Origin: Quillaja saponaria
Taxonomy: Eukaryota > Streptophyta > Magnoliopsida > Fabales > Quillajaceae
DNA length: 64,000 nucleotides
Direction: 5' to 3'
Assembly (NCBI GenBank): GCA_029379385.1
Contig: CM055618.1
Coordinates: 6,892,134-6,956,133, forward strand
Shown: piece by piece, positions 29,731 through 64,000 of the stretch
Position numbering within the stretch: position 1 is the stretch's first letter
Layout of the letters: every line of letters begins with the position of its first letter
The notes under the pieces: model-generated
The model's input: only the letters and a program-made list of their open reading frames with translations
What the model was told of the DNA's origin: nothing
Databases searched by the model: none
Made by a program: the position numbers and the translations under genes

Positions 29731-30883
29731 AAAATTTTAGCAACAAGTTCTGATAACCAGTAGGTACATATGCAATGAAAAACTATGTAGATAAAGATAA
29801 TATAGTTGGTGAGGGAGAAGCACTAGGGAAAAGGTAAGTGATAGCGACAAATGGCGCGAGGCTATCGTACTATAGATATGGGAACGAGGGTTTTGCAGTA
29901 AAAGGTAACTATTGGTTATGTAATCACACATTTGCTGTAATAAATTTTTTTTTTCTTTTTTAACCCAATCATATATTTTTTTTTATCCATGGCATTATCC
30001 TTTGTGAATGGAAAAAAATATTATAGGATGATATAATGGTATTATAGTATGAAAACAAATTTTTTGTTTATTAAAATTATAATACAATAAATTAAATTAC
30101 AGAACAAATATTTAATTAATATTTCATATTGAGCCTATAATAATTGAAATCACTGACAATTAAAAATTATATGGTTGTAGTTGAATATTTATTAGATATA
30201 CAGTTGTCAAGTATTTGTGTAATAATTTATTTAAAGTTCACGTCAGAAGAGATGAAAAGCAAAGAAGATAAAATAAATATGAAAATAGTAATAATACAAA
30301 CAAAATAAAAGTAAAAGACAAACAAAATAAGAAGAGGAATATTGCAATATGGCGAGAACCTACTGTTATTTTTACAGTACACATATCAAAATACAAATAA
30401 ATCTAATTGTAGATATTATTACTATGATCATTTTAAATTCTTTTGTTGTATTTATTATACTGGTCATTTTTTTCATTTTGTTTTTCTATTGTTACTAGTA
30501 TTTTTATTTTTATATTTTAAACCTTTTAATAAATATATTGTCTAAAATTTAAATACATTAAATGAATAATAAATAAAAATATTATATGATATAATGAAAA
30601 ACAACAATTACTTAATTCAAATACAAACATTACAATAAATAGAAGATAAAGTAAAATAACATGAACAAATACAAATAGTAATAAGAACAAACATTGTATT
30701 TCATATTGATATGCATGATTAATCCTCACATTCCTTCTGAAAACCCATCAAAATCCTCATAAATAATTTTTCTAAAATCTCAAAGAGTTATCAATACGCT
30801 TTGTTATATTACCACCAACTCTAGTTTCACATATGATAATCATATTAGGCATGTAGTGGTTGATGTACTCTAAGAAAACTTAA
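29731..30883. other. AT-rich intergenic
   Basis: No supported gene. Overlapping 60-70 codon ORFs on both strands at 30342-30729 are low-complexity (F, Y, I, L rich) and lack motifs. Confidence 0.45.
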
Positions 30884-31216
30884 TGCAGGGCGGGAACGTG
30901 GTTGATAATAGGATTGTTCATGACAAATTCTACACATCCTTGATCACAAGGAAAATAAAGAATTTGATGCACCAGAACTATGAAATCAAGCAAAGTGTTT
31001 ATTGATAATTTCAAAGATGCCTTCATGCTACATAAATGGCTTTTAAATAAACTGCAATAGACTTAATCAACAAGTAAAATATATTCTAGAACTTTCATAA
31101 AATTAATTTTTCCCTAAATTACTCTAATTATCCTAAAGTCAAGCTATTTAAATATCCTTAAATAATGCTTAGTAAAATTACAATAAATGGGTTGATCGTT
31201 GCTTTATTGTCTTGCA
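30884..31216 (-). repeat. 3' LTR of the host short LTR element
   Basis: In element orientation it starts TGCAAGACAATAAAGC and is preceded by the purine tract GTGGAGGGGACCGA (on + at 31217-31230). It aligns with 35208..35494; this copy has an extra ~45-bp stretch near 30945-30985. Confidence 0.78.
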
Positions 31217-32085
31217 TCGGTCCCCTCCACTTGGAAAAAATCGTCCTCGAGTTTAGGAGAAGAAATTGGAATCTTCCACTCCATAATAAGAGATACTTGG
31301 AGTAACTGAAAGATTTTGAATCTTTTCCACATGAGGTTTTCATGAATTTAGAATTCAAAAACTCCATTGCAATTTTCAATTTGATTAAGAGATTTACCGA
31401 TTTGGCAAATACCTCAATTACAAGAAAATCTAAAGTTCTAATTTTGGATATTGATCGAGATTTTGGACTTGACTAGAAACACTTTTAGAAACTTATTGGA
31501 ATCTTCCTCTGCAAGAATATCATCACTAACATTTTTTTCGTCTTCTCGTAAAGCATTGTTTTTTTTAATAACTTCTATTTCAAAAGATTTTTCGACAATT
31601 AAATCTTACATGATTTCTTCATGTGAATCTTCTTCATAGATTGGTGGACTATGTTGTTGGAATGACTCACTTGGAGTTTGATCCCAGATGTATCTACAAT
31701 TGTCAAAGAAAACTTCATTTTTATTTTTCAAATCATCATAGGGGTCTTGCCTATGATGATTTGTAGGACCGCGTCAATTAATGGATTGGCTGAGAGTATA
31801 ATCTCCAGCACAGTTATTACCACCATCTTCACGAACTTCAAAATCATCATAAGGTTATTGTTTATGACAATTTTCAGGACCATGTCGGTTGATGGATTGA
31901 CCATGAGCATCATATCCTGCACAATTATTCCTACCATCTCCATGAACGCTATTGGCATTAGACCAAGTTAGTGAGCAGGTCACAAATCTCATGGAGTTTC
32001 CTGGTCATTCTTGTTCCATATGCATCTAATGCCACCCTTTGTGCATCCAATGTAGCCTTGTCCGCATCCAATACTGCCTAAAGAG
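31217..32085 (-). other. Internal region of the host short LTR element (part)
   Basis: The minus-strand reading is rich in N, D, H and Q and is broken by stops; no domain is recognised. It contains a two-unit ~111-bp duplication at 31730..31950. Near 32015-32080 short GCATCYAATG-type words recur four times. Confidence 0.5.
31730..31950 (-). repeat. Two-unit coding-like minisatellite, 111 bp
   Basis: Both units start AAATCATCATA on + and share GACC...GTC...TGATGGATTG, a GAGYATAAT-like block and CCTRCAC-type text. A period of 111 bp (37 codons) preserves frame. The minus-strand units translate to GDGRNNCAGYDAHGQSIN and EDGGNNCAGDYTLSQSIN, suggesting a repeated protein segment in the ancestral element. 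Confidence 0.7.
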
Positions 32086-32176
32086 CGTCACATCCTGCTG
32101 ACTTGTTGCCTACATGGCGCCACTTGGACAACGATTAAGAGGTTTGTGTGACACACTCATACAAGTTTGTGAAGCA

Positions 32177-32326
32177 TTCTAGAAGAATCCAGGATATTCC
32201 GGAAGGTTCCAGAAGATTCAAGAAGGTTCTGGAAGGGTCCAGAAAGATGTATAAGACTTTTGAACACTTTAGAAAGTTCTACAAGGTTGTAAAACATCCT
32301 AGAAGATCCTGGAAGGTGCAAGAATG
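32177..32326 (+). promoter_or_regulatory. Heat-shock-element array in 5' LTR
   Basis: 150 bp of unbroken 5-bp register: 30 pentamers that alternate TTCnn and GAAnn. Units 5-12 (32197..32236) are perfect: four TTC and four GAA in strict alternation (TTCCGGAAGGTTCCAGAAGA and onward). Overall, 10 of 15 even units are exactly GAA and 6 of 15 odd units exactly TTC; most others differ by one base. The plant heat shock element is nTTCnnGAAnnTTCn, bound by HSF trimers. Binding and heat response are inferred, not shown. Confidence 0.8.
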
Positions 32327-32480
32327 TGTTAAATGCTCTAGAACAATATACTTAGTTCTAATGGGTCTAGATATTTCTTGAAATATGTAAAATATCTAAG
32401 ATATTTTGTAAGAGAATTCTAAATGGGCAATATGAGACGTTAGATGAAATCAATCTCCACCGTTGGTTGAGGAGGTAGAG

Positions 32481-32491
32481 TATTATAAATA
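32481..32491 (+). promoter_or_regulatory. TATA box of the TR-GAG 5' LTR
   Basis: TATTATAAATA, 154 bp downstream of the heat-shock-like array and repeated in the 3' LTR at 34867..34877. Transcription would start about 30 bp further on, consistent with a U3-R boundary near 32520. Confidence 0.65.
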
Positions 32492-32700
32492 GGAGTAGGG
32501 AGTCATTTGAAAGCAATCAAGCAATCTAAACATTGTAAGCAAGAATGCATTGTAAGAGTATTCGAGTATTCAATAAGAAGTTCCTTTCTTAAAGATTCTC
32601 TTGAGTTTGAGTAAAGGTTAGGCTGACTTAGCATTCTAGTACGGGGCTTGAGTGTCTAAGTGCCGCACAGGAGCATTGGATTTTTCTAAGACTATGACAG

Positions 32701-32714
32701 TTGGTATCAGAGCC
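32701..32714 (+). promoter_or_regulatory. Primer-binding site of the TR-GAG element
   Basis: TTGGTATCAGAGCC, one base after the LTR end. It is the standard site complementary to initiator tRNA-Met in plant LTR retrotransposons. Confidence 0.85.
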
Positions 32715-32741
32715 AAAGGTTACGAAAGGAACATAACTACA

Positions 32742-34441
32742 ATGGCATCCGAGATTACTAATGTGATGGAGCATGTTGGTAGGCAAAAGGAGAAGGATCC
32801 TAATGGTGGAAAGGGAAGGAAAGGCAAGTTTAGTTCTAGGGATGTCCTGACTTCTTTTGAGTCTAGGATTGCTAAGGTGGAGCTTGTTGTTGCTGATAGA
32901 AGGGACATATTTGAAGAGATTGACCAACGCATTGAAAACCTTGCAAATTCCGATGAGGAAGTGCAAGGTGAGATGCAAGATGCTCTCAATTCTGTGTTCA
33001 ACTCTTGGAGGATAACGTTGGATGCTCTTAAAGAGATAGTGTTGGCCAAATTTGTTACCATGAAGGAAGAAATCAAAGAGATCAAGGTGGATTGGTCTCT
33101 TTATAAGTTGGTTGTGATACAAGGGATTGGCACAACTCAAGCCACTCCTAAGGTGGATGTTCTGAGACCTAAGAGTTATAATGGGTGATGGAATGCAAAG
33201 GAGTTGGAGAATTTTCTGTGGAGCATGGAGTAATACTTTGAGGCTAGTGGCATTAGGGAGGATACCACCAAGATCCAAACTACTCCCCTCTACCTTGTTG
33301 ACACTGCGATGCTATGGTGAAGGAGGAGGCATGGTGATATTAAGAAGGGTACTTGTGTCATCAACACTTGGGAGGATTTCAAGGCCGATATCAAGAAACA
33401 ATTCTATCTCAAGAATGTTGAGCAAGAAGCTCGTGGAAGGTTGTGACATCCACACACAAGGGGAGTATGTGAGACTATGTGAAGGAGTTCACTGAGATAC
33501 TCTTGGAGATTCCTAATCTACTTGACAAGGAAGCTTTGTTCGCCTATACGGATGGCCTCCAACCATGGGCCAAGTTGGAGCTACAAAGGCGTGGCGTATA
33601 AGACTTGGCTTCCGCCATGACCGCTGCTAAATCATTGATCTAGTTTAGGAAGCCCAAGTCAACCAAGCCAATGGAGAGAGAGAAGGAGCATAATGGCAAT
33701 GGTGAGGGAGACAATGGTGGTCACTATAAAGGAGAAAATTCTAAATCACCTACTCATTCCAAAGGTAAGTTGAACCAATGGAGTAAGAATGAGGATGATA
33801 AACCAAAGATAGCTTGCTTTCTTTGTGAAGGACCTCATCGAGCCATAGAATGTCCACAAAGGGTAAAACTTTCAGCATTGTTGGAAGAAGATGAAAAGCC
33901 ACAGGTACCACCCAAGGAAACAAAGGTAGGTTTGTTACAACTCTTGAATGCAATCAAGGGAAAAGTCGAGGTGCTGAAGACCGAGAAGGGACGCATGTTC
34001 ATCATGGCAGAGGTAAGTGGTACTATGACTAAAGCTCTTTTGGATACCGGTGTTTCCCATAATTTCCTTGAAGTGAACGAAGCTAGAAAACTTGGGGTGA
34101 AGTTCAAAAAGGAACAAAGGTAGATCAAGGTCGTAAACTCTGAGGCTAGGCCTATTTATGGGGTAGCAAGTGTGAAGCTATGCCTTGGTGAATGGAGTGG
34201 GACGGTAAACATGTCCGTTGTGCCAGTGGACGACTATCTAATAGTGCTTGGCATGGAGTTCATTGATAGTGACAATGCACCCATTATGCCGTATGCAAAC
34301 TCCATATGTATCATGAGGGAGGAGAACGCATGCATGATGCCGATGGCTAGAGAAGTTGCCATTAAGACAAAAATCTTATTCGGCATGAAACTCTTGATAA
34401 CATCCAAGGTAAGACTGCCAAGTTTGAAGAGGAGCTTGTGA
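32742..34441 (+). pseudogene. TR-GAG gag-protease pseudogene
   Basis: Starts ATGGCATCC at 32742, 28 bp after the primer site. Order: an N-terminal helical, charged segment (LTSFESRIAKVELVVADRRD); a gag core at about 33190-33600 (ELENFLWSME, WEDFKADIKKQFYLKNVEQE, YVKEFTEILLEIP); a CCHC knuckle at 33817-33858 reading CFLCEGPHRAIECP. Then comes a protease with the loop ALLDTGVSHNFL at about 34033-34068 (DTG catalytic) and the flap-to-end segment VLGMEFIDSDNAPIMPYANS. In-frame stops at 33186, 33231, 33318 and others, mostly explicable as CGA or CAA or TGG changed by one transition, plus one frameshift near 33470, inactivate it. No pol follows. Confidence 0.88.
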
Positions 34442-34460
34442 TGAGGGTGTCGCTTGGTTA

Positions 34461-34472
34461 GGTGGAGGAGAA
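34461..34472 (+). promoter_or_regulatory. Polypurine tract of the TR-GAG element
   Basis: GGTGGAGGAGAA immediately before the 3' LTR start TGTCATGTC. It lies only about 20 bp after the end of the protease reading frame, which shows that no pol is missing as a visible remnant. Confidence 0.8.
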
Positions 34473-35079
34473 TGTCATGTCTTGCTAACTTGTTGCCTAC
34501 ATGGCACCACTTGGGCAACGATTAGGAGGTTTGTGTGGCACACTCATACAAGTTTGTGAGGCATCCTAGAAGAATCCAGGATATTCCGGAAGGTTCCAGA
34601 AGATTCAAGAAGGTTCTGGAAGGGTCCAGAAAGATGTATAAGACTCTTGAACACTTTAGAAGGTTCTACAAGGTTGTAGAACACCCTAGAAGATCCTGGA
34701 AGGTGCAAGAATGTGTGGAATGCTCTAGAACAATATACATAGTTCTAGTAGGTCTAGATATTTCTTGAAATATGTAAAATATCTAAGATATTTTGTAAGA
34801 GAATTCTAAATGGGCAATATGAGACGTTAGATGAAATCAATCTCCACCGCTGGTTGAGGAGGTGAAGTATTATAAATCGGAGTAAGGAGTCATTTGAAAG
34901 CAATCAAGCAATCTAAGCATTGTAAGAGTATTCAATAAGGAGTTCATTTCTTAAAGATTCTCTTGTGTACTTTCCTTCTCTTGAGTTTGAGTGAAGGTTA
35001 GGCTAACTTAGCATTCTAGCACGGGGCTTGAGTGTCTAAGCGTCGCACGGGAGTGTTGGATTTTTCCAAGACCGTGACA
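34473..35079 (+). repeat. 3' LTR of the TR-GAG element
   Basis: 607 bp, TG...CA ends intact. Differences from the 5' LTR are scattered and mostly transitions; a ~20-bp stretch (GCAAGAATGCATTGTAAGAG region) of the 5' copy is absent here, and CTTGTGTACTTTCC-type text is present only here. Confidence 0.87.
34564..34713 (+). promoter_or_regulatory. Heat-shock-element array in 3' LTR
   Basis: The same 30-pentamer register as at 32177..32326, with only a few changes (unit 1 TCCTA, unit 17 CTCTT, unit 20 GAAGG, unit 24 GAACA, unit 25 CCCTA). The perfect eight-unit core is conserved, and unit 24 is a better GAA match than in the 5' copy. Confidence 0.8.
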
Positions 35080-35189
35080 CAATATTGCTTAAAGAGCTTG
35101 TACCCTACGATCACTGCCAATAGGATGGTTACTACCACCCCTGCCATTGTTGTCATTGCCATCAACGTTCTTCATTTGGATCTCCATCT

Positions 35190-35207
35190 TGGCTCTGATA
35201 CCATTAA
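35190..35207 (-). promoter_or_regulatory. Primer-binding site of the host short LTR element
   Basis: On the minus strand TGGTATCAGAGCC follows the LTR end TTTTGCA after a short TTAA spacer. It is complementary to initiator tRNA-Met and fixes the element's orientation and inner boundary. Confidence 0.8.
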
Positions 35208-35494
35208 TGCAAAACGAGAGCATGGTTAATAACATAATTGTTCACGACAAACCCTACACATCCTTGATTATAAGGAAATCAAGCGAAATATTTATTCATA
35301 ATTTCAAAGATTCCTTCATACTACATAAATGGTCTTTAAATAGACTATAAAAGACTTAATCAACAAGTAAAGAATATTCTAGACCTTTCCTAAAATTACT
35401 ATAATTATCCTAAAATAGAGCTATTTAAATCACCTTAAATAGTGCTTGTTTAAATTACAATAAATACAGTTGATCGTTGCTTTATTGTCCTACA
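35208..35494 (-). repeat. 5' LTR of the host short LTR element
   Basis: 287 bp, TG...CA ends on + (TGCAAAACG ... CCTACA). Pairs with 30884..31216. Flanking 5-mers (CTTAA left, TCAAA right) do not match well, so the target duplication is decayed or an end is slightly off. Confidence 0.78.
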
Positions 35495-35779
35495 TCAAAA
35501 TTGTACTAAACTGTATACTTTCGGCACCTTATACATTCCAAAATTTTGTGAAGGATTGAATATGCTGTCAACTTTAGATGATAATAATTATGATCTTGTA
35601 GACATTTAGCTAACACTTCCTAATTTTCTTTGATGTATTTTGAGAAAATTGTGAACTTGAACTATTTTTCCTCTGTTTAAAGTAGTTAATATCTTTATAT
35701 AGATGTCTATTCCCCCCTCCCCCCAAACTATATGACTTCCTTCCATAAGAAATATCATATTTTTTGTCGACCTCTAATA
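35495..35779. other. Intergenic spacer
   Basis: AT-rich with no gene; a CCCCCCTCCCCCC run is at 35711-35724. Confidence 0.4.
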
Positions 35780-57765: not shown

Positions 57766-58215
57766 ATGAAATATTTAATATTGTCATGCTTGATTTTTCT
57801 TTTACAAAATCATGTTTTTGTCAATGGAGATCAAGGCTTAATCAACGCTGTGTGTTCAAAAACACAAGAACTGGAAGCATGTCATCTTTGTTTCGATTCG
57901 AATCCTCAAAGCAAACAAGAAGATCTCCAAGGACTTGCTGGAATAGCAATCCATTGTACTACAGATGAATATCAAATTGTGAATGGATTGTTTGAGGATT
58001 GTGCAGCCCATAATCCAAATGAGAAGATTAAAGAAGCATGTGGAAAATGTGTTACAATATATATTAGTGTAAATTTTTTTTTATCAGAAGCACTTGTTAG
58101 CTGGCAAAAAAAACTATATGGAGAATCTGAATATCAAGTAGATTCTGCACATCGAGTTCATGACTTGTGTTTATTAAAATTACATGGTCCACAAACTTCC
58201 TCCAGATTTTACTGA
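57766..58215 (+). CDS. Invertase/pectin methylesterase inhibitor-like secreted protein
   Basis: 149 residues, single exon. Residues 1-21 form a signal peptide (hydrophobic YLILSCLIFLLQ, small residues before the cut). The mature part has the family start LINAVCSKTQELEAC with the C-x8-C pair (Cys30, Cys39), then NPQSKQEDLQGLAGIAIHC, an ACGKCVTIY segment (Cys95, matching the family's C-x-x-x-Y) and Cys135, giving the four cysteines that form two disulfides in PMEI/invertase inhibitors. Extra Cys residues (42, 64, 79, 92) are unusual. Family members continue about 30-40 residues after the fourth Cys with a last helix; this one ends after 14, so its C-terminus is short. Would act in the apoplast or vacuole; target enzyme not predictable. 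Intact ORF with a TATA box, so plausibly expressed. Confidence 0.8.
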   Translation: MKYLILSCLIFLLQNHVFVNGDQGLINAVCSKTQELEACHLCFDSNPQSKQEDLQGLAGIAIHCTTDEYQIVNGLFEDCAAHNPNEKIKEACGKCVTIYISVNFFLSEALVSWQKKLYGESEYQVDSAHRVHDLCLLKLHGPQTSSRFY

Positions 58216-59789: not shown

Positions 59790-62318
59790 TGTGCAAAGTT
59801 AGATAAGTTTGATGGGATGAATTTCTCTTGCTGGAAATGACAAAATAATGTTCCTTCTAACTGCTTTAAAGATCTCCTTCATCCTTGATCCATAATTGCT
59901 AGATCTTCCTTAGGCAACACCAGAAGACAATGCAGAGACAAAGGCATAATGCAAGAAACGTGAAGAAAACGAGTTGCTTTGCAGAGAACACGTTATGAAT
60001 TCTCTGGTCGATCGATTGAATGATTTGTTTACTTCAATGAAATCTCCAAAGAAAATCTGGAAGACTCTAGAGTATAGATACAACATAGAGAAACAAGACA
60101 CAAATAAGTTTATAACTATGAAATATTTCAAATTTTCTATGCATGATAATATTTATGTGTTAAATTAAGTGCATAAGTTACAAATTTTGGTTTCTAAACT
60201 TAAAGACTGAAAGATAGATGTTCTTGAACCATTACAAGTGGGAACAATTATTGCTAAACTCCCTCCCAGTTAGAATGGTTACATGAAGAAACTCTTCCAC
60301 ACCACTGAGGAAATTAACTTAGAACAAATCCAAAAAAACATTTGAGAATTGAGGAAGAAACCTGAAATCATGAAAAAGCACTCATTGCTCAATTTGGATG
60401 TTCTAAAGTGAATTATATGGAAGAAAATAAGTTTCAAAACCATCAAGGAGGGAATAACAAGAGGAAACATCCAATACTTACAACACAGACAATCATAGCA
60501 ACTTCAAGAAACAAAAGACAGAAACCAGGAAGTGTCATCACTGTAAAAAGACTGGACATATCAAGAAAAATGTAGATTCGAGGAGAAATTAAAGAAGGCA
60601 GGAGAAAACAACAAGGTTAACATGATTGAAAGGGATAAGTCCACTGATCTTGTTGTAAGGATTTCTTATTTACATATTAGAATGATCTCAGAACTGTATA
60701 TGATAGGGATTACCAAGTTTAATGACTGGTGGTATGATTCTGGTACAACAGTGCATATTTGTCATAACAAAGATCAGTTTAAGGACTAAGAAGATGCTGC
60801 ACATGGGCAAGATGTGTTTATGGGTAATCATAATACTGCTAAAGTATTTGGTAAAGGTAGTGTGGAACTTCAGTTTACATCCTAAAAGAAACTTCAACTT
60901 GTTAATGTTCTCCATGTTCCTGATATTAGAAAAAAATCTAGTGTATGCAACTCTATTATGTAAGAAAGGTTTCAAGTGAGTCTGATAAGTTGATACTGTC
61001 CAAGAATGGACTGTTTGTTGGGAAGAGGTACTCATGTGATGGAATGTTCAAATTAAGTATTAACTAAACACATAATGTTGCTTATGTTACTGAGTGTTCT
61101 TCTTTTTTCTTTATGGCATAATTGTTTAGCACATGTTAATTATAAGTCATTAAAATTTATAGCTAAGCAAGGATTAATTTCTTATATTCATGATGAAAAA
61201 GAAAATTGTGAAATTTGCTTTCAAACTAAGATGACCAAGAAACCTTTGCCTAAAGTAAAGAGAAACACAGATTTGTTAGAACTTGTTCATTATGATATTT
61301 ATGAATTAAATGACATTCTAACTAGAGGTGAAAATCGATACTTCATTACTTTCATTGATGATTCATCTAGATTAACTTATGTGTATTTAGTGAAAAATAA
61401 AGACAAAAATTTCAATATGTTTAAGTGTTATAAAACCTCTGTAGAGTATAAAAAAGAAAAGAAAATTAAGATATTGCATAGCAATAAAGGTGGGGAGTCT
61501 TTTCTTATTGAATTCTCTTCTTTTTGTGTAGAAAATGGTATTATTCATCAAATTAGTGCTCCACATACTCTATAGCAAAATGGCTTGGAAAAAGGAAAAA
61601 TAGGACTCTAGTTGATATGATTAATTCCATAATCTTGAAAGAAAAATTATCATTAAATTTATGGGGTAAAGCTTAGTGCATGTCATGTTCATAATAGAAT
61701 ACCTTCAAGGAAAACTAAAACATCTCCATTTGAATTATGGAAAGGCAAGAAACCCAATCTAAGTTATCTCAGAGTAAGAGGCTGTTTGGCTTTTTATAAA
61801 GTAATTGATCCAAAAAGAACAAAAAGTAGGACCAAGGGCTGTTAAAAGTGTTTTTGTAGGTTATGCAGAAAATTCTAAAACTTATAGGTTGTTAGACTTG
61901 GAATGTGATGTTATTGTAGAATCAAAAGATGTTGAATTTCTCGAAAATAAATTTCGGGATGATAATACCAATGCTTTAGAATCTACCAAAACACAAGTAA
62001 CAAACTCTAATCCTATTTCTCCTACTAGTACTAAAAGAAAGACAATTGAACTTTCTTCTAAAGTTAGAAGAAGTCAAGGCCAAGGAAGGAGACGAGTTTA
62101 AATCCTAATTTTATATTTTCTCAATCCATTGTCTTTCTAGTAGAAGGTGATAGGATCATTGTACTTAATAAAATATCTATTGTACTAAATATTAAAGATG
62201 GTCCAAAGACATTCAATGAAAATATGGCTTCAAGATATTCAACTTTTTGGAAAGAAGCAATAAATGATGAGATAGACTCTTTATTTTCAAAAAATACATA
62301 GGTATTTTTGAAAACTCT
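59790..62318 (+). pseudogene. Copia gag-pol pseudogene
   Basis: Order: gag (KLDKFDGMNFSCW at 59800; VDRLNDLFTSMKSPKKIWKT at about 60009; EYRYNIEKQDTNKFITMKYF); zinc knuckle CHHCKKTGHIKK at 60536-60570 with its last Cys lost by a frameshift; protease DSGTTVHICHN at 60735-60767; LHVPDIRKNLVYATLL (60911-60958). An open 166-codon integrase stretch at 61075..61575 has the zinc-binding HNCLAHVNYKSL, CEICFQTKMTKKPLPKV, LVHYDIYEL, FIDDSSRL and HSNKGGES. Integrase tail at 61805-62000 reads KVGPRAVKSVFVGYAENSKT, YRLLDLE and VEFLENKF. Then SLFSKNT, where RT should begin, is cut by an RTE LINE. Frameshifts and stops are numerous and some catalytic residues have changed (HSN for RSD). Confidence 0.88.
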
Positions 62319-64000
62319 GCCAGAGGTTGCTCTGCCGGTCCCAAGCCCGGATAAAGGATGAGGGTTGCGATAGGTTGACAGCCAACGTAAAACTAGTCAA
62401 ACCCTATGACGATGAATCCTACCAAATATTCGTTGGAGCGTAACCTTCTTAGCGACGCGCTGCATCGGATCTTGAGTGTAGTGAGAAATGAGCAAGGTTT
62501 GGGTCGTCACATCCTTAGTGGCGCGCCACATCGACACTCGGGTGTGGTGCAAAATAAGCAAGGGTTTTCTCATCGAGGGTGGGTGCGGGTAAAAAAGCTA
62601 GTCTAAGATAAGATTCGAATAACTACTTGGAATATAGGGACTCTTACTGGTAAATTGAGATATCTTGTAGATACTATGAGTAGACGGAGGATTAATATTG
62701 CTTGTTTGCAAGAAACTAAGTGGGTAGGAGAAAAGGCTAGAGAGATAGAGAGAATAGGATTCAAGATGTGGTATATCGGTAAGACTAGAAATAAGAATGG
62801 AGTGGCGATTATTATAGATGGAAATTTAAAGGACGAGGTTGTTGAAATCAAGAGGAAAAGTGATAGAATAATTTTAGTGAAATTGATGATAGACGAGGAG
62901 GCCTTTAATATCATTAGCGCCTATGCTCTACAAATAGGATTTGAAGAATCTACTAAAAAGGCTTTTTGGGATAATTTAGAGGAGATAGTCCAAGGAGTAC
63001 CGTTAGGTGAGAAACTGTTTATTGGTGCTGATTTGAACGGTCATGTAAGAAATACTAACGAGGGTTTTGAGAGCCTAAATGGAGGATTTGGTTATAGAGT
63101 TAGGAATAAGGGTGGAGAGTCTATTTTAGATTTTGTAGTTGAGTATGACTTGATTTTAGCTAACACGTTTTTTAAGAAATGAGAGTCGCACTTAGTCACC
63201 TTTAGTAGCGAGTCGAGTAAGAGCCAAATAGATTTTGTTTTGACTAGGAAGGTTGATAGAGAGATTTGTAAGGATTGTAAAGTTATACCCGATGAGTGTT
63301 TATTGTCTTAGCACAAACTTATGGTTGTGGATGTTGGTGTTAAGCGGCAGAAGTAAAAGCACATAAGTAATAAGTATATTAAGACTAGATGGTGGAATTT
63401 GAATGGAGAGAAGATGGCTCTTTTTAAACATAAAATGTTATAGGGTGATCCTTGGAGGGTGGAATGTGAGCCTAACATGATTTGGGATGAGATGACGAGT
63501 CGTATCAGGAATACGGCTAGTGAGGTGTTAGGAGAAAGCAGAGGACGTGGACCTCTAACTAATGAGACATGGTGGTGGAATGAATAAGTTCAACAAGCTA
63601 TTAAAGTTAAAAAAGAGTGTTATAAAATATTACACAAGTGTAGAAATGAAGATAATTATAAATGTTTTAAACAAGCTAGAAAAGATGCTAAGAAAGCGGT
63701 TAGGGAAGCCAGATGCAAGACTTGTGAAGGACTTTACCAAAAGTTAGAGACAAAGGATGGAGAGAATGATATTTATAAGATTGCCAAGCAAAGGGAAAGA
63801 CGAACTAAAGACTTAAATCGTATTAAGTGCATTAAAGATGAGGCTGATAGGATTTTAGTTAAGGAAGATGAGATTAATGAGAGATGGTGAACTTATTTCG
63901 ATACTTTATTTACTGGGGAGTCAAGGGGTGATTTTGGAGACCTTGATGACACCTTTGATGATACGAACTGCCGATTTGTTCGTCGGATTAGAGCACAGGA
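62319..64000 (+). mobile_element. RTE-type LINE, 5' part, runs off the window
   Basis: A GC-richer leader (62319-62600: GTTGCTCTGCCGGTCCCAAG, CCCGGATAAAGGATGAGGG) precedes an ORF open from 62605 to 63182. It encodes an APE-type endonuclease: TTWNIGTLTGKLRYLVDTM, CLQETKW (about 62702), NKNGVAIIIDGNLKDEVVEI, FIGADLNGHV (about 63017), GGESILDFVVEYDLILANTF. After a stop at 63180-63182 the frame continues with ESHLVTFSS, SKSQIDFVLTRK, a CKVIPDECL segment and a linker (TWWWNE, KCIKDEADRILVKEDEI) before RT, which lies beyond the window. Stops near 63310, 63354, 63441 and 63586 show inactivation. It matches plant RTE (BovB-like) LINEs rather than the L1 type of the other two LINEs here. Confidence 0.88.

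Follow-up and report, generated by a model that had tools for sequence, protein, structure and literature searches.

In the excerpts of the literature on which we draw, the heat-responsive LTRs described as carrying HREs belong to Ty1/Copia retrotransposons, whose clusters number roughly 3 to 6 pentamers (PMC5059998, PMC10881000). Among the Brassicaceae COPIA elements, 4P HREs, with at least four adjacent nGAAn pentamers, form the strongest class and are accompanied by heat induction of up to a thousand-fold (PMC5059998, in part). The HRE of ONSEN has been reconstructed as a duplicated proto-HRE, nTTCnnGAAn (excerpts of PMC5059998 and PMC3907296), and its LTR is bound by HSFA2 (PMC3907296, same excerpt). 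More generally, the heat response is stronger with more consecutive subunits of the heat-shock element (HSE), according to the accessible part of PMC2871787. HSEs in LTRs, tandem HSE-like motifs in Helitrons, Drosophila HSEs of up to 11 subunits and heat-responsive Ty3/Gypsy elements are already known from these partial sources. Among the literature matches listed, taken by their titles and the beginnings of abstracts and with most subscription papers outside the scope, none reports HSEs arrayed in tandem in the LTR of a Gypsy or TR-GAG element, and none listed for the transposable elements of Quillaja is on that subject by its title.

Here we describe such a candidate array in both LTRs of a retrotransposon of Quillaja saponaria. 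It lies in a stretch of 64,000 nucleotides of contig CM055618.1 that was analysed as a whole and that we call the window.

Layout of the array in the two LTRs

The array occupies positions 32177–32326 of the + strand, with a consensus unit of TTCTAGAAGR, and its copy in the 3′ LTR occupies 34564–34713 (+). An earlier note on this DNA had read it as fifteen consecutive TTCnnGAAnn decamers. The 10-bp register does hold over all 15 units, matching 74 of the 90 HSE positions, but only 5 of the 15 units in the 5′ LTR and 4 of the 15 in the 3′ LTR are perfect, the remainder matching at 3–5 of the 6 positions. The register score has a mean of 25.2 (SD 4.5) over all window positions, the two top-scoring of which are the two LTR arrays, and a maximum of 42 in 300 first-order Markov simulations of the LTR. 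Self-matching of 32167–32336 yields 0.61, 0.55, 0.60 and 0.56 at lags of 10, 20, 30 and 40, respectively, vs 0.11–0.33 at all remaining lags between 3 and 39.

Within the register, eight adjacent perfect pentamers (four TTCnnGAA) span 32197–32234 (+) and recur identically at 34584–34621 in the 3′ LTR. This is the flawless eight-pentamer core that the earlier note had placed at 32197–32236, an end that includes two trailing spacer bases. Counted as in 4P-type HREs (at least four adjacent nGAAn), each LTR thus has eight perfect pentamers. Elsewhere in the window, perfect alternating pentamers reach at least three in a row only once, in a run of three at 31084; in 20 simulations of the window, runs of at least three averaged 1.15 (at most 3).

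Under a tolerant rule of our own, in which the critical G or C is intact and at least two of the three core bases match, 14 adjacent alternating TTC/GAA pentamer slots extend over 32177–32244 (+), with 14 in both LTRs vs 4 at most beyond them. The HSF-critical G/C bases in this rule were taken from excerpts of PMC2871787 and PMC7010933. When each run is instead limited to two substitutions, it comprises 12 slots (32177–32234) in the 5′ LTR and 11 (34569–34621) in the 3′ LTR. Each LTR offers 30 pentamer slots, 17 of which are perfect, and the critical base is intact in 23 of them on the 5′ side and in 25 on the 3′ side. The unit at 32177 is perfect but reads TCC in the 3′ LTR, so that a C-to-T change may have occurred afterwards. 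The last eight units (32247–32326) form a degenerate tail, with exact GAA in 5 units of the 5′ LTR and 6 of the 3′ LTR and exact TTC in one unit of each; this tail would be a weak step-type HSE at best.

Judged from the base sequence, the HSE reading of the array is well supported. Its eight adjacent alternating pentamers exceed the 4P minimum given in the available part of PMC5059998, and 14 slots carry the bases on which HSF binding would depend. A putative TATA box, TATTATAAATA (32481–32491, +), recognized as a sequence motif, starts 155 bp past the array end, the spacing that the earlier note had reported, and 247 bp past the end of the perfect core. The array is located in U3, and TTC and GAA alternate at a uniform 5 bp throughout its core.

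The retrotransposon, its coding part and its age

The element that carries the array is 2,994 bp long and lies on the + strand; it is a non-autonomous LTR retrotransposon of the gag-protease kind, in which both LTRs, the primer binding site (PBS) and the polypurine tract (PPT) are present. The 5′ LTR (32086–32699, +, 614 bp) starts with CGTCA vs TGTCA in the 3′ LTR (34473–35079, +, 607 bp), and both end in TGACA. Located by sequence, the PBS TGGTATCAGAGCCA (32702–32715, +) begins 2 bp past the 5′ LTR and is presumably of the initiator-Met tRNA type; the PPT GGTGGAGGAGAA (34461–34472, +), also placed by sequence, adjoins the 3′ LTR.

Gag- and protease-like pieces, interrupted by stops and one frame change, occupy the internal part. 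The first open stretch of gag (32712–33185, +) runs for 158 codons before a stop and has 83% identity, over 34% of its length, to a hypothetical protein of Quillaja saponaria, P0002. Its Pfam match to ATG17_like (19.9 bits, cut-off 43) was rejected as a probable chance, coiled-coil-like similarity, and two other Pfam models also matched, both far below cut-off. Further on, a capsid-like piece of gag (33321–33443, +) gives a sub-threshold match to Retrotrans_gag (14.2 bits vs a cut-off of 24.1). The piece at 33644–34120 (+) combines a zinc-knuckle-like motif, CFLCEGPHRAIEC, recognized by eye, with an aspartyl-protease-like segment (LLDTG) that scores below threshold for Asp_protease_2 (20.7 bits vs 24.3); gag-asp_proteas in the element's own pieces is likewise sub-threshold (18.9 vs 28.2). 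Positions 33671–34120 match a second Quillaja saponaria protein, P0001, with 86% identity over 24% of the query, and P0001 itself lies above the Pfam cut-offs for Retrotrans_gag (43.8/24.1), Asp_protease_2 (31.4/24.3) and gag-asp_proteas (30.9/28.2). P0001 and P0002, both located on large Quillaja saponaria contigs, are the sole proteins found at E 0.001 for the two gag-protease pieces. The pieces at 33473–33598 and 34124–34438 matched no Pfam family, and no reverse transcriptase or integrase was found in the internal part, where the Pfam scan covered 5 of the 16 open stretches of at least 25 codons. In the viral_contigs collection, the gag-protease piece gave 6 pattern stretches with zero relatives among them, and an exact piece of the LTR gave 0 stretches.

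The TR-GAG class is described in the available parts of PMC6022998 and PMC9784723 as two LTRs enclosing gag, or gag and protease, only. Our element fits a TR-GAG-like non-autonomous element: the interval 32700–34472 between the LTRs contains gag- and protease-like pieces, themselves sub-threshold in Pfam, and a PBS, a PPT and TG..CA ends are present, with CGTCA as the start of the 5′ LTR. The earlier note had called it a non-autonomous, gag-only Gypsy derivative. Its non-autonomous, gag-type character stands, but the aspartyl-protease-like piece means that it is not gag-only, and gag and protease similarity, as the sole basis of the Gypsy (Ty3) assignment, would place it there tentatively.

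Aligned with each other, the LTRs differ by 38 substitutions over 589 sites, 34 of them transitions (K2P 0.069), which corresponds to 2.6 or 4.9 million years at assumed rates of 1.3e-8 or 7e-9 per site per year. The 5′ LTR has T or A at 23 of the 34 transitions (P 0.058), and decay of methylated cytosines would make the LTRs appear older than they are. The window copy is an older, disrupted insertion that has probably lost its mobility. It would require the enzymes of a partner, and mobility today is unlikely; its LTRs may nevertheless still be heat-responsive promoters.

Outside both LTRs lies a 17-bp direct repeat (32069–32085 and 35080–35096), 15 of whose 17 positions are identical, with 2 mismatches. 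The 5-mers adjoining the LTRs, AAGAG and CAATA, differ from each other, unlike this repeat. The usual target duplication of an LTR retrotransposon is 4–6 bp, and the longer repeat here possibly reflects a repair-type insertion or a repeat at the target site. The element is nested in another LTR element, likewise small but on the − strand, of which LTR pieces are seen at 30880–31218 and 35204–35496. Without the insert, the internal part of this outer element measures about 1 kb; its PBS type matches that of the inner element by eye, and it contains a 111-bp unit in two tandem copies (31730–31947, 74% matches).

Three further features were seen in the window. An ORF at 57766–58215 has a sub-threshold match to the plant invertase/pectin methylesterase inhibitor (PMEI) family (23.8 bits vs 29), and none of 6 candidates proved to be a relative at E 0.001. 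A fragment at 61075–61575, which we take to be of Copia type, has a GAG-pre-integrase domain and an integrase core domain, each exceeding its Pfam cut-off. A 175-codon ORF at 62655–63182 looks by eye like a LINE-type endonuclease and matches no Pfam family at E 0.001.

Heat-shock elements, minisatellite drift or another factor

The question weighed is whether the array is an HSE or merely a MINISATELLITE. In its simplest neutral form, the latter explanation holds that a 10-bp U3 minisatellite happened to contain TTCnnGAA in its unit, that the register arose incidentally through duplication and that nothing binds; we consider it rather unlikely. The earlier note had named equal drift at TTC/GAA and spacer positions as the pattern that would speak for a random minisatellite, and this pattern is absent. 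The TTC/GAA positions mismatch the HSE at 16 of 90 sites in the 5′ LTR vs 23 of 60 mismatches of the spacers to their own majority, and the 3′ LTR gives nearly the same counts (core 16/90, spacer 22/60). When mismatches were shuffled within units, the low core total had P values of 0.0045 (5′) and 0.0083 (3′) and the run of four perfect units P values of 0.0036 (5′) and 0.0032 (3′), in tests that share the same 15 related units and in two LTRs that are copies of one array. Long, old arrays are also likelier to catch a reader's attention, a caveat that attaches to the choice of this one.

The permutations depart from the equal drift of a simple neutral minisatellite; the entropy rank is weak, however, with the HSE columns placed 17th (5′) and 19th (3′) among 210 six-column choices. 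A perfect run of equal length is obtained for 7 of the 210 column sets. The two halves of the motif also decay unequally, mismatches affecting 12 of 45 TTC positions vs 4 of 45 GAA positions in the 5′ LTR (P 0.05) and 13 of 45 vs 3 of 45 in the 3′ LTR (P 0.011). Since HSF should need both halves, the faster decay of TTC counts against selection by HSF, as do the weak column ranks and the broken state of this copy. The decay and the ranks also lend the neutral explanation some weight, and the drift evidence against it is modest. The steadiest position of the unit is the last A of GAA (15/15), the critical G being retained in only 12 and 13 of the 15 units. Among random 10-bp units with this composition, about 0.3% would include TTCnnGAA in one rotation or another, a chance that is small for one array, though not negligible over many.

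Arrays from organisms without HSF bear on the same explanation. Prokaryotes and viruses are not known to have HSF, and the four-decamer TTCnnGAAnn pattern occurred in 17 prokaryotic stretches of the genome_contigs collection (L002–L018) and in one viral contig (L001), so that it can arise without HSF. These loci served solely as HSF-free controls, each measured at the block of four units where its spacers varied most. Within the perfect block, the spacer difference is 0.61 in the window; 10 of the 18 controls have a value of 0 and none exceeds 0.5, which makes the window spacers the most varied of the 19 loci. Such varied spacers around a perfect core argue against simple neutral duplication, as do the slower drift of the core, the improbable perfect run and the placement of the array upstream of a TATA box within an LTR. 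The control closest to the window is the viral (IMG/VR) contig, where four decamers at L001:4009–4046 have a spacer difference of 0.5. Longer arrays, counted by a 4-of-6 rule, were seen in Neolewinella lacunae (L007:2421–2498, 9 units), Methanosarcina spelaei (L009:4410–4487, 10 units) and Cedecea sulfonylureivorans (L012, from 6152, 9 units). A stricter array pattern returned 0 stretches from viral_contigs.

Comparison of the two LTRs was rejected as a sign of function, because no selection is expected after insertion and the conserved stretch falls short of significance. They differ at 5 positions within the array, 4 of them at TTC/GAA positions, and these changes say little since an inserted copy is expected to be free of selection. 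The rate of 5/150 is below that of the rest of the LTR, though not significantly (P 0.083). The difference-free run of 80 bp over the core (32179–32258) is not significant either, runs of at least 80 bp appearing in 13% of simulations, and a longer one of 99 bp lies elsewhere in the LTR. Perfection of an HSE is itself an unsure mark of function, given that mismatched HSEs of wheat responded as strongly as canonical ones in the accessible part of PMC7010933.

The unequal decay of TTC and GAA also suits a different kind of enhancer, in which the U3 repeat would be recognized every 10 bp on its purine-rich AGAAGR side by a factor other than HSF, its likeness to an HSE being incidental. Tandem U3 repeats do occur in other LTR elements, and here the GAA side outlasts TTC, with exact GAA in 11 of 15 units of the 5′ LTR and 12 of 15 of the 3′ LTR. 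Nonetheless, a motif read in one orientation needs neither eight perfect alternating pentamers nor 14 slots with the HSF-critical bases, as HSF does; no candidate factor was found, and GAA at a 10-bp pitch would equally suit a weaker step-type HSE, whose spacing it fits. The step-type class is named in the excerpt of PMC5059998. Arabidopsis Gypsy and Copia elements that are activated by heat have been reported to carry DREB/CBF and REF6 sites (PMC11656987, in part), which makes a heat response possible without HSF and so favours this other-factor explanation, but on balance we regard it as improbable.

A proposed enlarged heat-responsive enhancer among known systems

The explanation that we favour, as somewhat likelier to be right than wrong, is that the array is an HSF-responsive U3 enhancer of a TR-GAG-like element, grown by 10-bp duplication and representing an enlarged ONSEN-type arrangement. 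A proto-HSE, TTCnnGAA, would have been duplicated repeatedly in 10-bp steps to yield the array. In an active ancestor, the run of some 14 alternating pentamers would then have been occupied by several heat-activated HSF trimers, binding cooperatively and on the same face of the DNA, and the HSF-bound array would have driven transcription at the TATA box, 155 bp beyond its downstream end. Such binding and the resulting induction by heat are proposed by analogy with ONSEN and with the 4P HREs, and selection for them is likewise a proposal. We advance more tentatively, as a possibility that falls somewhat short of probable, the broader proposal that a non-autonomous gag-protease Ty3-type family independently evolved an HSF enhancer of about 14 pentamers by minisatellite growth.

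Were this broader proposal true, it would point to a separate, non-Copia origin of HSF-coupled retrotransposition, with an HSE run longer than in the plant LTRs compared, as these are described in the partial sources. Heat would activate a parasite still dependent on the reverse transcriptase of a partner, and a much longer Ty3-type array would show independent capture of HSF via minisatellite growth. The perfect core, the decayed tail and the two LTR versions would form a natural series for relating HSE length to heat output, and such LTRs could place HSEs beside host genes. The 5′ LTR contains 17 CG cytosines over both strands, 2 of them in the core, and 23 CHG cytosines, 6 of them in the core; stable methylation is therefore possible and silencing expected, which weighs against the enhancer reading.

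Long or tandem HSEs are known from other settings. In Caenorhabditis, HSE-like motifs bound by HSF-1 and consistent with overlapping tandem HSEs are carried by Helitrons (PMC6927752, in part), which are nematode DNA transposons, whereas the window array is part of an LTR promoter. The HSE of Drosophila Hsp68 comprises up to eleven subunits when two substitutions are allowed (excerpt of PMC2871787), and by a similar limit the window array has 12 (5′) or 11 (3′); unlike the LTR array, however, the Drosophila HSE lies in the promoter of a host heat-shock gene. Human satellite III consists of tandem GGAAT repeats with perfect HSEs inside and recruits HSF1, but it is a pericentric satellite whose repeats run head to tail with the HSEs interspersed, unlike the window array (PMC7889540, in the part available).

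Among retrotransposons, the TR-GAG elements share the gag/protease-only layout, and the excerpts of PMC6022998 and PMC9784723 make no mention of an HSE array in them. Ty3/Gypsy elements of Cryptomeria, Scots pine and moso bamboo (PHRE1/2) show heat-altered expression or activity (PMC9780303, PMC8656106, both in part). In the same excerpts an HSE array is undescribed for these heat-induced elements, and the factors given for PHRE1/2 are TCP20, DOF2 and GATA. In the Ty1/Copia superfamily, two Brassicaceae elements come nearer. TERESTRA is heat-responsive and has as many as five or six nGAAn clustered in its LTR, and Alesia.FAM.7 has an LTR cluster of four (PMC5059998, PMC10881000, in part). Both clusters are shorter than the window array and belong to another superfamily, and a 10-bp minisatellite is undescribed for them in the available text.

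The closest counterpart is ONSEN/COPIA78 of Arabidopsis, a Ty1/Copia element in which an adjacent nGAAn run is likewise borne by the LTR and has been reconstructed as a duplication of nTTCnnGAAn (PMC5059998, PMC3907296, as excerpted). ONSEN is a Copia element, whereas the window element is a non-autonomous gag-protease element. CG and CHG sites, both present in the window LTR, are absent from LTRs 1 and 2 of ONSEN according to the excerpt of PMC3907296. As far as the sources extend, ONSEN combines a 4P cluster of four nGAAn with a weaker gap HRE, vs eight perfect pentamers and 14 tolerant slots in the window. By analogy, the window array looks like the duplication that produced the ONSEN HRE, repeated many times.
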